Shown here: positions 13,043-22,451 of the stretch, one piece after another
Position numbering within the stretch: position 1 is the stretch's first letter
Layout: every line of letters begins with the position of its first letter
DNA from: Candidatus Saccharimonadota bacterium
Lineage (GTDB): Bacteria > Patescibacteriota > Saccharimonadia > Saccharimonadales > Saccharimonadaceae
DNA: 64,000 nt
Assembly: GCA_017404335.1 (NCBI GenBank)
Contig: JAFRCN010000004.1
Coordinates: 62,001 to 126,000, forward strand
Direction of reading: 5' to 3'
The notes under the pieces: model-generated
Databases searched by the model: none
What the model was told of the DNA's origin: nothing
Seen by the model: the letters and a program-made list of their open reading frames with translations, nothing else
Translations under genes and position numbers: made by a program

Positions 13043-13710
13043 AGTAAGCTCGCTTGCTTAGAAATCGGAAGGTCAATATAGAAGCTGGTACCGTCGCGGT
13101 GGCGGGTGGCGCCGACGGTCGCGTTCATATAGCGAGAAAACTTAGTCGCGATATAGAGGCCTAGCCCGGTCGAGTCGGGGCGCATTGAAACGGAAGTTGG
13201 CTCGACTAGATTACCGGATTTAAGATCACGCCAGATTTTAGTAGGGAGGGCGGGACCGAAGTCGCGGATATCGACGCGGATTCGATTTTTTGAATCGGAA
13301 ATCGAGAGGATGGTTTTTGTTTCTTCGGTAGAGTAGCGAATAGCATTAACGAGAAAATTATAAATAATACTCGAAAGTAAGTCGCGGTTTGCCGTGACGA
13401 GGGGGGATTTGTTTTTGTATTTTAGGTTAAGACCACGTTTATGATATGAGAATAGATAATCCATTTCGCGTTTGATTTCATCGCAGAGAGCGCGAATCGC
13501 GATGGGTTCCATTTCGAAGAGTCCGTCTTCGAGACGAGCGAGTTTCGCGAGGTCGTTGACTTGTTTTAGGGCGCGTTCGGAGACGCTAATCATTTCGGCG
13601 CGGAGGTGATTGGATTTTTTGTCGTCGGACGTTGGAAAAGCCAAAGCGAGCTGACGCAAAGTTGCGAGTGGCGCCTTTAACTCATGCGCAAGAACTGTGT
13701 TTACCTCCAT
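13039..13710 (-). CDS. Soluble minimal sensor histidine kinase
   Basis: 223 aa. It starts almost at the HisKA box (H9 in AHELKAPLATLRQL) and continues into a HATPase_c domain: N box IIYNFLVNAIRYS, G1 DIRDFGPALP and G2 STGLGLYIATKFS. There are no sensory or transmembrane segments, so the input must come from a partner or from the cytoplasm. The -10 at 13719-13724 (minus strand) leaves only 8 nt before the ATG, so the transcript is nearly leaderless. It shares a palindromic promoter region with the divergent ABC transporter. Confidence 0.9.
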   Translation of the reverse strand: MEVNTVLAHELKAPLATLRQLALAFPTSDDKKSNHLRAEMISVSERALKQVNDLAKLARLEDGLFEMEPIAIRALCDEIKREMDYLFSYHKRGLNLKYKNKSPLVTANRDLLSSIIYNFLVNAIRYSTEETKTILSISDSKNRIRVDIRDFGPALPTKIWRDLKSGNLVEPTSVSMRPDSTGLGLYIATKFSRYMNATVGATRHRDGTSFYIDLPISKQASLL

Positions 13711-13718
13711 ATATATTT

Positions 13719-13736
13719 ATTATAGCATGCTATAAT
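13719..13736. promoter_or_regulatory. Palindromic back-to-back divergent promoters
   Basis: An 18-bp perfect palindrome, ATTATAGCATGCTATAAT, is made of two facing -10 boxes: TATAAT at 13731-13736 for the ABC transporter (6 nt to its ATG) and the complement at 13719-13724 for the kinase (8 nt to its ATG). Both cannot be occupied at once. Confidence 0.8.
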
Positions 13737-13742
13737 GGTAAT

Positions 13743-15518
13743 ATGTCGAAGAAGAAAGGGAATGCTCGTAGGGTATTACATTATTTTTGGCAAGCTTTGA
13801 TGCAACACAAAGTGCGAACATTTTTGCTTCTAGTTTTGATACCGGTTTATGTGTTCGTGGCGGATATTTTATTGCCAAAAGGAACGAGCGAGATTATCGG
13901 GAGGCTATCTGAGGGAGATTTTGAGATTGCGAATTATACGGGGATTTTGATTTTAACTTTAGCTCCTGTATTATTTAATAACTTGTTTTTAGTTAGAATT
14001 TTGGATTGGTTAGATTGGTCGCTAGATGCAAAGGGTGGAGAATATTTGTCGAGCCTGGCGTTTAACGCGGTAATAAATCAATCGATGACGTTTCATGCGA
14101 ATCATTTTTCGGGTTCTTTGACTTCGCAGGCGAATAAACTGCCGGGGGCGTTTATTGATTTGAAGTCGAATTTTGTGTGGGACATTTATCCGCTAATCCT
14201 AATAGTTGCGTTTTCGATTATCTCGGCGGGATTTGTTTCGCCGGTGTTTGCAGGAATATTGCTAGGCTTTACGGTAGTGTATGTTACGATTGCGGTGGTG
14301 ACGTTTTATAAAACGCGTGATGTGGATGAAAAATTTGCGACGGCAGAAAATAAACAAACGGGACAACTGGCGGACTCGATTACTAATGTACTAAGTGTTA
14401 AATCTTATGCAAGGGAGAGTTTTGAGCGAGCGAGGTTTCGACGGGCAACTAAGCGAACGCATGATGCGACGTTTGGAGTCGCAAAAGTGTCGATGTGGCG
14501 AAACTTTATGCTAAATTCGGTTGGGAGTGTAACTTTTGTGGCGATATTGGTCTTAATTATTATGAGCCACGATTTGTTTGGACTTTCGATTGCGAGTGTA
14601 GTATTTTTATATTCGATTTCTAGCTCGCTAATTTCGGAGATTTGGCGAGTTAACCATATCCTTCGGGTGATGAACCGAGCGTTTGGCAACGCTAAAGAAA
14701 TGGTGGAGATTTTGGATTTGCCTTATATAGTTGACGATAAAACTGACGTGCCATTAAGAGTGTCGGACGGGGCTTTGGATATTTCTCACATTACGTTTAA
14801 GCATGAAAATGAAAAGACTCCGCTGTTTGAAGATTTTTCGCTTAAGGTTTCGGCGGGAGAGAGTATGGGGCTAGTCGGGATATCGGGTTCGGGTAAAACG
14901 ACTTTAACTAAATTGATTTTGAGATTTGATGATGTAACATCGGGAGCGATTTATATCGACGGAAAAGATATTCGAGATGTAACACAAAAGAGCCTACGCG
15001 AAGCGATTTCGTATGTGCCGCAAGAGTCGTCGCTATTCCATCGTTCGATTTATGAGAATATATTGTATGGACGACCAGAGGCTTCTTCGGAGGAGGTTTA
15101 TTGGGCAGCAAAACTAGCGAATGCGGATGAGTTTATTTCTAAATTGCCGGACGGGTATGAGACTATGGTTGGGGAGAGAGGAGTAAAACTGTCGGGAGGG
15201 CAGAGGCAAAGAATTGCGATAGCGAGGGCGATACTAAAAGATGCGCCGATTCTAGTTTTAGATGAGGCAACTTCGGCCTTAGATTCGGAATCTGAGGCTC
15301 TGATTCAAGAAGCTTTGGCGAATTTGATGAAGGGGAGAACGTCGATCGTCGTAGCGCATCGATTATCGACGATTGCGGGGCTTGATAAAATCGTAGTATT
15401 GGACGACGGGAAGATTGTTGAACAAGGGACGCATAAGGAATTATTAGCAAAGAAAGGGGAATACGCGAAGCTGTGGTCTAGACAAAGCGGAGCTTTTCTA
15501 GACCCTGACAGGGGATAA
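13743..15518 (+). CDS. ABC exporter, fused permease and ATPase
   Basis: 591 aa from the ATG at 13743. A six-helix ABC_membrane domain (about 10-310) precedes a nucleotide-binding domain with Walker A GISGSGKTT, signature LSGGQRQRIAIARAIL, Walker B ILVLDEATSALD and the H-loop AHRLST. It forms a homodimeric or heterodimeric exporter of the MsbA/MdlB type; the substrate is unknown. An upstream in-frame ATG at 13632 lies before the promoter and is rejected. The last residues (after RQSGAFL) come from palindrome A. Confidence 0.92.
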   Translation: MSKKKGNARRVLHYFWQALMQHKVRTFLLLVLIPVYVFVADILLPKGTSEIIGRLSEGDFEIANYTGILILTLAPVLFNNLFLVRILDWLDWSLDAKGGEYLSSLAFNAVINQSMTFHANHFSGSLTSQANKLPGAFIDLKSNFVWDIYPLILIVAFSIISAGFVSPVFAGILLGFTVVYVTIAVVTFYKTRDVDEKFATAENKQTGQLADSITNVLSVKSYARESFERARFRRATKRTHDATFGVAKVSMWRNFMLNSVGSVTFVAILVLIIMSHDLFGLSIASVVFLYSISSSLISEIWRVNHILRVMNRAFGNAKEMVEILDLPYIVDDKTDVPLRVSDGALDISHITFKHENEKTPLFEDFSLKVSAGESMGLVGISGSGKTTLTKLILRFDDVTSGAIYIDGKDIRDVTQKSLREAISYVPQESSLFHRSIYENILYGRPEASSEEVYWAAKLANADEFISKLPDGYETMVGERGVKLSGGQRQRIAIARAILKDAPILVLDEATSALDSESEALIQEALANLMKGRTSIVVAHRLSTIAGLDKIVVLDDGKIVEQGTHKELLAKKGEYAKLWSRQSGAFLDPDRG

Positions 15519-15640
15519 AGATATTTTGGCGTGCCCTTCGGGCACGCTCCGGGCCGCTCTGGCCAAGTCCTCATGTCCCTTAGGGCAGTCAAAATATCTT
15601 TATCCCTTGAATGCTGTCAGGAAGATATGGTTTGTCTAGA
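15477..15640. repeat. Palindromic insert A between the convergent ABC exporter and rarA genes
   Basis: The inner arms GGGATAAAGATATTTTG (15512-15528) and its exact complement (15590-15606) flank the core. The inversion extends outward in patches: CCTGACAG (15504-15511) against CTGTCAGG (15614-15621), and TCTAGACAAA (15477-15486) against TTTGTCTAGA (15631-15640). The end of the exporter gene therefore carries an inverted, partly degraded copy of the end of rarA. The core holds two hairpins, GTGCCC-TTC-GGGCAC and TGTCCC/GGGCA, separated by CTCCGGGCCGCTCTGGCC. It nearly matches the core of insert B in rsmA. It may also act as terminator for both genes. Confidence 0.88.
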
Positions 15641-16755
15641 TGGAAGCCGGCTTCCCACTTTTGGCCTTTGCCGTAGCCAAGGTCTTTCATGAGTTTGGTT
15701 GGGGCGTTGCGAAGCCAAGTCGGGACGGGTTCACCGCGAGTCTTCCGAGCGAGGTCGAGGGCTTTATACCAGGCGTCGGTGGTTTTGCGGGATTTTTTCG
15801 AAAGGGCAAGGGCGACGGTCGTATGAGCGAGCATGAGACCGGATTCGGGCATGCCGACGCGCTCGACGGCTTGAAAACAGGCGGTCGCGAGACTTAATGC
15901 GCCATTTCCGGCGAGGCCGATATCTTCGGAGGCGAAAATAACCATGCGTCTCGCGATAAACTTCGGGTCTTCGCCGGCTTCGACCATGCGAGCGAGATAG
16001 TATAGGGCGGCGTCGACGTCGGAGCCACGCATAGATTTAATAAAAGCCGAGATAGTATCGTAATGATTGTCGCCTTTTTTGTCGTAGCCGGGAAGTTTTT
16101 TGCCGGCGGCCTCCTCGGCAACTTTTTTGTCAATTTTCGGAGCGAGCGAGGCGGCAAGTTCTAAATCTCCGAGAGCGGATCTGGCATCACCGCCTGAAAT
16201 TTCGGCGATATAATCTAGAGCGTCTTTAGTAATTTTGATTTTTTCACTTTTGCAGGCGCGATTTAAGACTTCCAAGATGGCGGATTTGCTGAGGGGGCTC
16301 ACGACGACGACGCGGGAGCGGGAAAGGAGAGGGGAGATGACTTCGAAACTCGGGTTTTCGGTGGTGGCGCCGATTAGAGTGATGAGGCCGGATTCGACGT
16401 GGGGAAGAAAGGCGTCTTGCTGGGCTTTGTTGAAACGATGGATTTCGTCGACGAAGAGAACGGTTCTAGTTTTTAAATTCCAGTTGACCTTTGCGCGGGC
16501 GACGACTTCTTCGACGTCTTTTTTGCCGGCAGTGACGGCGGAGATTTCGACGAAGTCGGCGTTAAATTCTTTGGCTAGAATTCGCGCGAGGGTGGTTTTG
16601 CCTGTCCCGGGAGGACCCCAAAAAATTAAATTGACCGGTTCGGCTTTTTTCGCGATTTCGGTTAAAATCTTTCCTTCGCCGATAATTTCTTCTTGGCCAA
16701 CAACTTCGTCTAAAGATTTCGGTCGCATTCTCTCCGCCAGTGGAACTCTGTTCAT
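15589..16755 (-). CDS. rarA: Replication-associated recombination ATPase RarA/MgsA
   Basis: 388 aa AAA+ ATPase of the clamp-loader clade: Walker A GPPGTGKT at 47-54, Walker B VLFVDEIHRF, sensor 1 IGATTENPSF, and the C-terminal MgsA domain (GSDVDAALYYLARMVEAGEDPKFIARR). It acts at stalled forks. It is leaderless: TGG-TATAAT on the minus strand ends 6 nt before the ATG. The final residues PDSIQGIKIF look native, implying the neighbouring exporter received the inverted copy in palindrome A. Confidence 0.95.
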   Translation of the reverse strand: MNRVPLAERMRPKSLDEVVGQEEIIGEGKILTEIAKKAEPVNLIFWGPPGTGKTTLARILAKEFNADFVEISAVTAGKKDVEEVVARAKVNWNLKTRTVLFVDEIHRFNKAQQDAFLPHVESGLITLIGATTENPSFEVISPLLSRSRVVVVSPLSKSAILEVLNRACKSEKIKITKDALDYIAEISGGDARSALGDLELAASLAPKIDKKVAEEAAGKKLPGYDKKGDNHYDTISAFIKSMRGSDVDAALYYLARMVEAGEDPKFIARRMVIFASEDIGLAGNGALSLATACFQAVERVGMPESGLMLAHTTVALALSKKSRKTTDAWYKALDLARKTRGEPVPTWLRNAPTKLMKDLGYGKGQKWEAGFHLDKPYLPDSIQGIKIF

Positions 16756-20560: not shown

Positions 20561-21646
20561 ATGAAGCTTTATAAAAAGCTTAATTTGATGTGGATTATAA
20601 CTTTGACGCTTGTTTTGGTTTTTGGGGCGATTATTTTTGCTTTAGGTATTAGAAACGTGAATGCGGAAGACGGAGATGCGGAGGAGGATTTTACTATTGA
20701 GATGATTCGCGAGGGGGCGAAGTATGTGACGATTTTCGACGATGGTGAGAAACTTACGGTTAAGTCGGGGGCAAAGACGGTGGGTGGGGTTTTAGGGAAG
20801 GCGGAGATTATCTTAAATGAAGGAGATATCGTTGAACCGGGGCTAGAGACGGAAATCGATATGGATAATTACTATATTAATATATATCGGGCAAGGCCGG
20901 TTTTACTTCGGGACGGAAAAATGACGAAATATGTAATGGTAGCGGGGTATGACGCGAGGACGTTTATCAAGCAGGCGGGGTTGACTTTGTATGATGGTGA
21001 TGAGGTAAAAATGGTGCCGAACGCGAATTTTCTTGAGACGGGAGTAGCGGAAGTTTATGAGATTACTAGGAATGGCGGGCGGACGATTACCGAGGAGGTT
21101 GAAATTCCGTTCGGCGAGACGACGATTAAGGATTATAACTTAGCGCCGGGGACGACGGAGGTAAGGCAACTCGGCGAAGTGGGGATGAAAGAGGTGCTTT
21201 ATAATGTTTTGTATGTAGACGGGGTGGAGGTTTCGCGAGAATATATTTCGGAAGAAGTGAGGCGCGAGCCGGTAGACCGGGTAGTCGCGGTCGGGGCGAG
21301 TAAGATTGAGCAAAGGCCGTTGACGCCGTCGATGGGGCGAAATCGTTATACGGTGACTTTGGCGGATGGTCGCGTGGTGGAAAGGCAGGAGACGTATTAT
21401 GACTTACCAATGTCGGGAGTGATGGGATTTTGCGGAGGAGGAAGCTACTCGGTCCGGGCGGATGGAGCGAAGATAGATCAAGACGGGTATGTTTTAGTTG
21501 CGGCGAACCTTTCTAGATATCCGAGGTGTTCGGTGGTTGAGACGTCGTTGGGGCTGGGGAAGGTTTATGATACGGGGACGTTTGCGGTTGCTAACCCAGA
21601 GCAATTTGATCTTGCGACAGATTGGACCAATAGAAATGGTCGATAA
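20561..21646 (+). CDS. Secreted DUF348/G5/3D-domain cell-wall protein (YabE/RpfB-like)
   Basis: 361 aa. A transmembrane or signal segment (about 8-28) precedes two DUF348-type repeats (KLTVKSGAKTVGGVLGKA and ITRARP/KQAGLTLYDGD-like), a G5 domain (EVGMKEVLYNVLYVDGVEVSRE to VDRVVAVG) and a C-terminal 3D domain with the Asp-containing GKVYDTGTFA and FDLATDWTN. The 3D domain suggests murein lytic activity. The start is set by TATAAT (20548-20553), 7 nt before this ATG; an earlier in-frame ATG at 20510 lies before the promoter. It overlaps rsmA by 11 nt. Confidence 0.85.
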   Translation: MKLYKKLNLMWIITLTLVLVFGAIIFALGIRNVNAEDGDAEEDFTIEMIREGAKYVTIFDDGEKLTVKSGAKTVGGVLGKAEIILNEGDIVEPGLETEIDMDNYYINIYRARPVLLRDGKMTKYVMVAGYDARTFIKQAGLTLYDGDEVKMVPNANFLETGVAEVYEITRNGGRTITEEVEIPFGETTIKDYNLAPGTTEVRQLGEVGMKEVLYNVLYVDGVEVSREYISEEVRREPVDRVVAVGASKIEQRPLTPSMGRNRYTVTLADGRVVERQETYYDLPMSGVMGFCGGGSYSVRADGAKIDQDGYVLVAANLSRYPRCSVVETSLGLGKVYDTGTFAVANPEQFDLATDWTNRNGR

Positions 21647-22451
21647 GGCTTTGGGGCAGCACTGGTTGTACAACCGCGAGGTCCTAGACTATATAGCAAG
21701 TGAAGCCAAGGGTGTGGCGTGTCCTTCGGACACGCTCCGGGCCGCTCTGGCCAAGTCTTCATGTTCCGCAGGACACATCACACCCTTGGCCTCACTTGCT
21801 TTAGAGATAGGGCCGGGGTTGGGGACATTGACTGCTTCGCTGCTTAGGCGATTTGAGAAAGTGGTGGCGGTGGAGTTTGACGCTAAATTGGCGCGGAATT
21901 TGCCGGGGTCGTTTCCGGGGAAGAATCTCGAGGTCGTGAATGCGGATTTTTTGAAGTTTGACCTCGCGAAGATGCCGGAGGATTATGTAATTGCGGGAAA
22001 TATTCCGTATTATATTACAAGTCCGATTATTGAGAAGATTTTGACGGCGGGGAGGTTGCCGAAACGGGCGGTATTGTTGATTCAAAAAGAAGTCGCGGAG
22101 CGGATTGCGGACGAAAAAGAGACGGGATTGTCGTTGTTTGTGAAAAATCGAGCTTCGGTGCGACTTGGGCCGGTCGTGTTAAAGGGAGAATTTACACCGC
22201 CGCCGAAGGTGGATTCGCAGGTAATTATTTTGGAGCCGTTTTTGGACGGGCCAAAATACCCGGATGAATTATTTAAGTTAATTAGAGCTGCTTTCACGGC
22301 ACCGAGGAAGAAGCTGATACATAACTTAAGTCAGTTGAAATCAAAAGAGGAATTAGGGGAGATTTTTGGGAAGTTAGGAATTAGTTTAAACGCTAGACCG
22401 GCCGACCTACATTTAGATGATTATTATAGACTTTATTGTGATATAATGTAG
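21636..22451 (+). CDS. rsmA: 16S rRNA dimethyladenosine transferase with a palindromic in-frame insert
   Basis: 271 aa. It methylates the two adenines near the 3' end of 16S rRNA. The KsgA signature ALGQHWL opens the protein at the ATG chosen here; a longer frame reaching back to 21498 would run through the upstream gene. Motif I is LEIGPGLGTL and motif IV NIPYYITSPI. Between LDYIASEA and LALEIGPG, where the family has only a short linker, about 23 extra residues come from palindrome B. The serS promoter lies in its last codons. Confidence 0.93.
   Translation: MVDKALGQHWLYNREVLDYIASEAKGVACPSDTLRAALAKSSCSAGHITPLASLALEIGPGLGTLTASLLRRFEKVVAVEFDAKLARNLPGSFPGKNLEVVNADFLKFDLAKMPEDYVIAGNIPYYITSPIIEKILTAGRLPKRAVLLIQKEVAERIADEKETGLSLFVKNRASVRLGPVVLKGEFTPPPKVDSQVIILEPFLDGPKYPDELFKLIRAAFTAPRKKLIHNLSQLKSKEELGEIFGKLGISLNARPADLHLDDYYRLYCDIM
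21695..21800. repeat. Palindromic insert B inside rsmA
   Basis: Arms 21695-21716 and 21779-21800 are reverse complements at 21 of 22 positions. The core 21717-21778 has hairpin 1 GTGTCC-TTC-GGACAC, linker CTCCGGGCCGCTCTGGCC and hairpin 2 TGTTCC/GGACA. Against insert A the core differs mainly at paired positions: C-G in A becomes T-A in B in hairpin 1, and the same exchange appears in hairpin 2. It is read through in frame in rsmA. Confidence 0.9.
22442..22447 (+). promoter_or_regulatory. -10 element (TGA-TATAAT) of serS inside the rsmA end
   Basis: Ends 6 nt before the serS ATG at 22454; embedded in the final codons of rsmA. Confidence 0.75.

Follow-up and report, generated by a model that had tools for sequence, protein, structure and literature searches.

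Why does rsmA in this Saccharibacteria genome carry a palindrome inside its reading frame, and what would keep such a palindrome paired? The gene, which encodes 16S rRNA adenine dimethyltransferase, lies at 21636 to 22451 (+ strand; PF00398, E 1.5e-39) of the window, by which we mean the whole stretch of 64,000 nucleotides that was analyzed. Base-by-base alignment of the arms places a GC-rich core between near-perfect inverted arms at 21699 to 21797, the − strand being the one thought to fold, and the palindrome folds more stably than shuffled sequence (z of −8.5 for the + strand and −9.9 for the − strand), in agreement with a preliminary description that had reported an in-frame palindrome in rsmA. 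R1, a covariance model built from 80 hairpin copies, matches it at 21703 to 21792 on the − strand (91.4 bits). Based on this match and the arm alignment, the copy has a left stem half at 21703 to 21730 and a right stem half at 21765 to 21792, each of 28 bases and neither assigned a strand; between them lies a conserved 34-nt head of type A at 21731 to 21764 (− strand), delimited in alignment A1 of the copies.

The AF2 model of RsmA with the insert has a mean pLDDT of 87, with values below 50 for insert residues 26 to 45, which is consistent with a disordered, tolerated loop. Most orthologues are without the insert residues and the genome contains 10 copies of the element, an outcome that favors an insert. 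This RsmA exceeds the shortest orthologues by 25 residues, and that of the sole other species sharing the insert does so by 28; as the linker is also of variable length within the genus, the previously given gain of about 23 residues can be taken as approximate only. Between the rsmA copies of two species, 6 of the 8 changed pairs are compensatory.

The window holds a second copy between two convergent genes, at 15509 to 15609 on the − strand (inverted arms; R1 match at 15514 to 15604, 73.0 bits), with a 34-nt type A head at 15543 to 15576 (− strand) that was located by core match and arm alignment. The 22-base core of the rsmA copy recurs without mismatch at 15546 to 15567, where chance would predict no match, and the paired C/G to T/A exchanges described between the two copies are real. 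An ABC transporter gene (13632 to 15518, + strand; PF00005, PF00664) ends in the left arm and a rarA/mgsA-like AAA+ ATPase gene (15589 to 16755, − strand; PF12002) in the right arm, the stop codons of both being contained in the hairpin arms. Further out, the unstranded segments 15477 to 15495 and 15622 to 15640 are 79% complementary in an inverted-arm comparison and may be an extension of this palindrome.

Both copies belong to a dispersed family. The window genome contains 10 copies, of which six are in frame (in rsmA, tsaD, gatA, a femX-like gene, a glycosyltransferase gene, and an O-antigen-ligase-like gene) and four are intergenic, mostly at gene 3′ ends. Core matches were found in 64 of 174 species of the same genus, and many Bifidobacterium species also have the element. 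A search across Saccharibacteria with a covariance model, as had been suggested, yielded 9 to 23 R1 copies in each of seven genomes; five Bifidobacterium genomes have 6 to 61. When the genomes of ~85,000 species were scanned, the matches listed came from Saccharibacteria, Bifidobacterium, and one probable chance hit, and they included one Bifidobacterium-group record assigned only to Bifidobacteriaceae. Other Patescibacteria families have rare single copies whose heads look alike by eye (L310, L311, and L312); one of these hairpins follows mutS, one follows gatB, and one is inserted in frame within valS, close to the L094 site. No copy was detected by R1 in 245 other Actinomycetota genomes sampled, and absences are provisional because filters were stricter in both wide searches and only a small number of candidates was scored in each genome.

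The Rfam 15 covariance models gave no convincing match; a single miRNA-family match to L096, under the gathering score, is taken as chance, and assignment to a known RNA family was rejected. Exact cores are absent from IMG/VR, and blastn found no match in phages with two queries or in plasmids with one Bifidobacterium query; a viral or plasmid vector was accordingly rejected. No earlier description in Saccharibacteria or Bifidobacterium was found in the literature searched, outside subscription journals and preprints, and the family is apparently undescribed so far.

An alignment of all 80 copies needs no gaps across its 90 columns (a 28-base stem half, the 34-nt head, and a second 28-base stem half), with 94.5% of stem cells paired and 999 double changes versus 296 in shuffles. 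Across this alignment the stem sequence varies freely and the inner head is near-invariant, the latter partly as a selection effect because the copies were chosen by their heads. What had been described as separate small hairpins 1 and 2 is better read as one structure, a long stem topped by a structured head, which probably folds on the strand complementary to that read previously. Within one genome, the arms of nonorthologous copies are unrelated in sequence; orthologous copies differ mainly by compensatory changes. The arms are locus specific because they diverge at their sites with pairing kept, and such paired exchanges argue that the constraint lies on a folded strand and not solely on the peptide.

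In Bifidobacterium, the stem is 28 to 29 bp long in 38 of 56 copies, the ends (CC|G...C|TC) are conserved, and the arms show base preferences specific to position. Many of these copies lie near gene 3′ ends, and many form divergent pairs, often with unlike heads, either type A (34 nt) or type B (31 nt). Close pairs (e.g., in G178 and G177) are nearly always ordered − then +, with one same-orientation pair in G181. The ~40- to 110-bp linkers between divergent hairpins (L370 to L383) are rich in GTTACG/CGTAAC-like words. Both filled and empty sites exist at the Bifidobacterium prfA-prmC locus, where one species has a type B head and its relatives type A. Further head types, labeled B to E, occur in Saccharibacteria at the gatA and tsaD sites.

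These empty and filled sites, together with paralogous whole hairpins (see below), suggest mobility. We read the feature in the window, with a probability of about one-half, as one copy of a nonautonomous mobile hairpin that is recognized as a folded single strand by a putative trans-acting enzyme. The mobile unit would be the whole hairpin of ~95 to 105 bp (longer in one subfamily), consisting of a structured head and a self-complementary stem. It occupies numerous positions on the chromosome in a single Saccharibacteria genus, is rare in other Patescibacteria, and is found in Bifidobacterium as well. The relevant fold most likely forms on one strand, the complement of CACGCTCCGGGCC, and is predicted to comprise the stem, an asymmetric bulge (R)UAA/UGAA, an inner helix G(A)CUUGGCC/GGCC..GAGC, and a loop (W)GAGC. 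The enzyme would read the shape of head and stem and not the stem sequence, and then insert the folded strand. Landings in frame in a tolerant loop would survive and be translated as a flexible, Ala/Ser-rich stretch, and other landings in genes would be lost; after insertion the stem would drift with its pairing kept. Directly observed are the structure and distribution of the copies, their numbers, their landing in frame, the sites with and without an element, and the paralogous whole hairpins; what we infer is movement by a dedicated enzyme, the identity of the strand, that single-stranded DNA and not RNA is involved, and the reason for lasting pairing. A consideration against this reading is that, for an element that is purely selfish, pairing would not be expected to last in a copy that stays in place, unless the copies are young, functional, or maintained by conversion. 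Only tentatively do we suggest a new kind of mobile element recognized through the fold of a single strand alone, with a constant head and a free-sequence stem of ruler length that long stays paired, moved by a class of enzyme so far not known for acting on hairpins of this sort, and transferred between Bifidobacterium and epibiotic Saccharibacteria.

Pairs of the G·U and A·C type give hints as to which strand folds. Counted on the strand complementary to that of the preliminary description, the G·U:A·C ratio is 96:22 in Bifidobacterium. For Saccharibacteria it is 18:4 for copies in genes antisense to the model strand and 12:3 for copies between genes; copies in genes along the model strand show no bias (7:6), in small numbers. 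Most of the Bifidobacterium excess comes from the inner stem (the outer 14 pairs give 14:10), for which reason we weigh the bias as moderate, and its P values are optimistic since related copies were counted as independent. The outer arms of Saccharibacteria copies keep the strand bias (19:5). As the bias is also present in antisense genes, mRNA folding is insufficient as its cause, and a DNA strand that folds, or else a separate RNA, would account for it better.

The main rival of the mobile-hairpin reading is upkeep by template switching, in which quasi-palindrome correction during replication would restore one arm from the other with no selection, the head being kept by origin or conversion. 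We consider it the less likely of the two, yet it accounts for the compensatory changes at orthologous sites and for the similar numbers of G·U and A·C pairs in the outer Bifidobacterium stem, and it has been proposed for the coding palindromes of Nematomorpha mitochondria (PMC6649704). In some tsaD copies, moreover, the right arm is complementary to host bases beyond the outer end of the hairpin, as outward correction would give, and template switching may thus have lengthened the arm to a limited degree. Left unexplained are the stem length of 28 to 29 bp, the conserved ends, the position-specific base preferences, the conserved head, and the strand bias of the Saccharibacteria outer arms. 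Palindromes that stay paired within coding sequence allow selection and template switching to be tested directly against each other.

A functional RNA is a further, rather unlikely explanation: the model strand would be transcribed and the hairpin RNA selected as a binding site, a processing site, or a small RNA, with mobility being secondary. The G·U bias on one strand, the invariant unpaired residues in the head, and the many Bifidobacterium copies near gene 3′ ends would all suit such an RNA. However, no Rfam family was matched, and 30 in-gene Saccharibacteria copies sit in host genes read against the model strand, which would call for a separate transcript at each.

Long open frames contain 50 of the 103 distinct Saccharibacteria copies, in both orientations. 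The host genes include rsmA, gatA, and tsaD; others, identified from their protein sequences and not from annotation, are ileS, valS, leuS, lysS, der, and lepA, as well as priA, uvrB, tgt, queA, murB, rluB, and tlyA. All in-gene copies that were read are in frame and free of stops. Where the host gene runs along the model strand, the phase is the same in 18 of 20 copies; where it runs in the opposite direction, nearly all type A copies likewise agree in phase. Given open frames and one favored phase per orientation, the inserts are very probably translated, which would place some 30 extra residues in many essential enzymes of minimal genomes with the enzymes unbroken. The earlier view that selection acts on a folded strand and not on the peptide thus holds in part: pairing is kept by paired exchanges, but the peptide is constrained too. 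A single gatA site bears an insert in ~44 of the 174 members of the genus, in every case in frame, and the gap lengths in insert-free homologues are multiples of three. Five or more head types (A to E) are represented among these gatA inserts (L212 to L241 and L250), and that of G138 (L250) appears to be of double length. We give very little credence to removal of the insert from the RNA in the manner of an intron, or to its being skipped by the ribosome as in byp; strong hairpins within essential genes would be in keeping with it, and Magnusiomyces yeast mitochondria have translationally bypassed palindromic elements (as reported in PMC6649704), but removal or bypass needs neither frame, openness, a favored phase, nor gatA gaps in multiples of three, and was rejected because the reading frame is conserved.

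The preliminary description had given each locus its own host-derived arms. Of 17 short tsaD homologues, 15 have AAxxGD or a close equivalent at the loop, one is a single residue shorter, and one is eight longer; the genes with a type A copy are longer than this empty site by 102 nt, which covers the core together with both arms. In addition, five or more copies located at unrelated sites have a ~130-bp hairpin in common, arms included, in a single genome, as its shared contig series indicates. In G061, loci L031, L060, L072, L099, L102, and L103 form a subfamily with arms of ~45 to 55 bp starting near CATTAACTTAAGCATGCCCAACAA; its hairpins are common to unrelated sites, with paired changes between them in the outermost bases of the stem. 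That a small core copies neighboring host sequence into an inverted second arm upon insertion would fit the unrelated arms of nonorthologous copies and the gatA gain of ~26 to 27 residues (about the core and one arm, and not decisive since the gatA linker varies in length), but it is highly improbable and was rejected in view of the tsaD gain, the whole hairpins shared between unrelated sites, and the fixed length and positional preferences of Bifidobacterium arms. As far as tested, the arms do not appear to be host derived, and at most their outermost bases may take up host sequence.

Profile searches of element-rich genomes for Y1/RAYT and reverse transcriptases did not reveal a mobilizing enzyme. 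PF01797 (Y1/RAYT) is absent from the window genome and from nine Bifidobacterium genomes, and is present in 8 of 174 genus members. The reverse transcriptase profile PF00078 found nothing in G152, G159, G174, G175, G177, G181, and G182, drafts that may be incomplete. Y1/RAYT or a genome-borne reverse transcriptase is therefore unlikely as a general mobilizer, and movement driven by a reverse transcriptase (as a retron, group II intron, or diversity-generating retroelement product) was rejected, several element-rich genomes being without one. The window genome itself (686 kb) has four RVT_1 genes (G000:C1:15433, C2:2407, C5:1814, and C5:71565), possibly of diversity-generating retroelements. 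Clustered loci (L364 to L369), searched for an autonomous copy, contain only apparent housekeeping genes.

The near-identical head in Saccharibacteria and Bifidobacterium, with none in the 245 other Actinomycetota, is a possible molecular trace of contact in the animal gut. The R1 model is a ready probe both for such contact and for the question of selection versus template switching.

How does the family compare with known systems? In integrons, attC sites are likewise recognized in the form of a folded single strand, and the sequence of their stem is variable. They conserve the stem ends (R boxes) and vary the loop, whereas the hairpin element conserves the head and varies the stem; no conserved GTTRRRY was found at Bifidobacterium stem ends, which have CC/TC instead. 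Like miniature inverted-repeat elements (MITEs), the element is short, nonautonomous, and dispersed, with inverted repeats, but its arms are not common to all copies, the CC/TC ends are conserved in Bifidobacterium, no target-site duplication could be recognized, and no related transposase was found. In the mitochondria of Nematomorpha, long inverted repeats are kept paired inside translated genes (PMC6649704). The arms of those palindromes encode conserved protein and share no head, whereas a conserved head and dispersed copies mark the present family as an element.

Bacterial interspersed mosaic elements (BIMEs) consist of palindromes arranged as oppositely oriented pairs with linkers (PMC2817692). 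The present hairpins resemble REP/BIME in being short and, in Bifidobacterium, intergenic and arranged in opposite-orientation pairs with linkers; they differ in their free stem sequence and in the many Saccharibacteria copies within genes, and assignment to REP/RAYT was rejected because element-rich genomes are without Y1 (PF01797). Rickettsia palindromic elements (RPEs) are dispersed palindromic units of ~100 to 150 bp in several families that insert in frame in unrelated metabolic genes and yield translational fusions (PMC10969869), and the likeness to them proposed previously is well founded, as our element, too, inserts in frame in unrelated protein genes (50/103 copies). The host phyla differ, and the hairpin element occurs in two phyla, with a constant head and free stem sequence. 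Repeat identity is reported to be lost over time in RPEs (PMC6649704); the Saccharibacteria and Bifidobacterium hairpins, on the other hand, keep their pairing by compensatory change, which sets them apart from RPEs as described. The family thus works like RPEs and is laid out like BIMEs in Bifidobacterium, and we file it under neither, because the RAYT test fails and because RPE arms reportedly decay, whereas these arms keep pairing.
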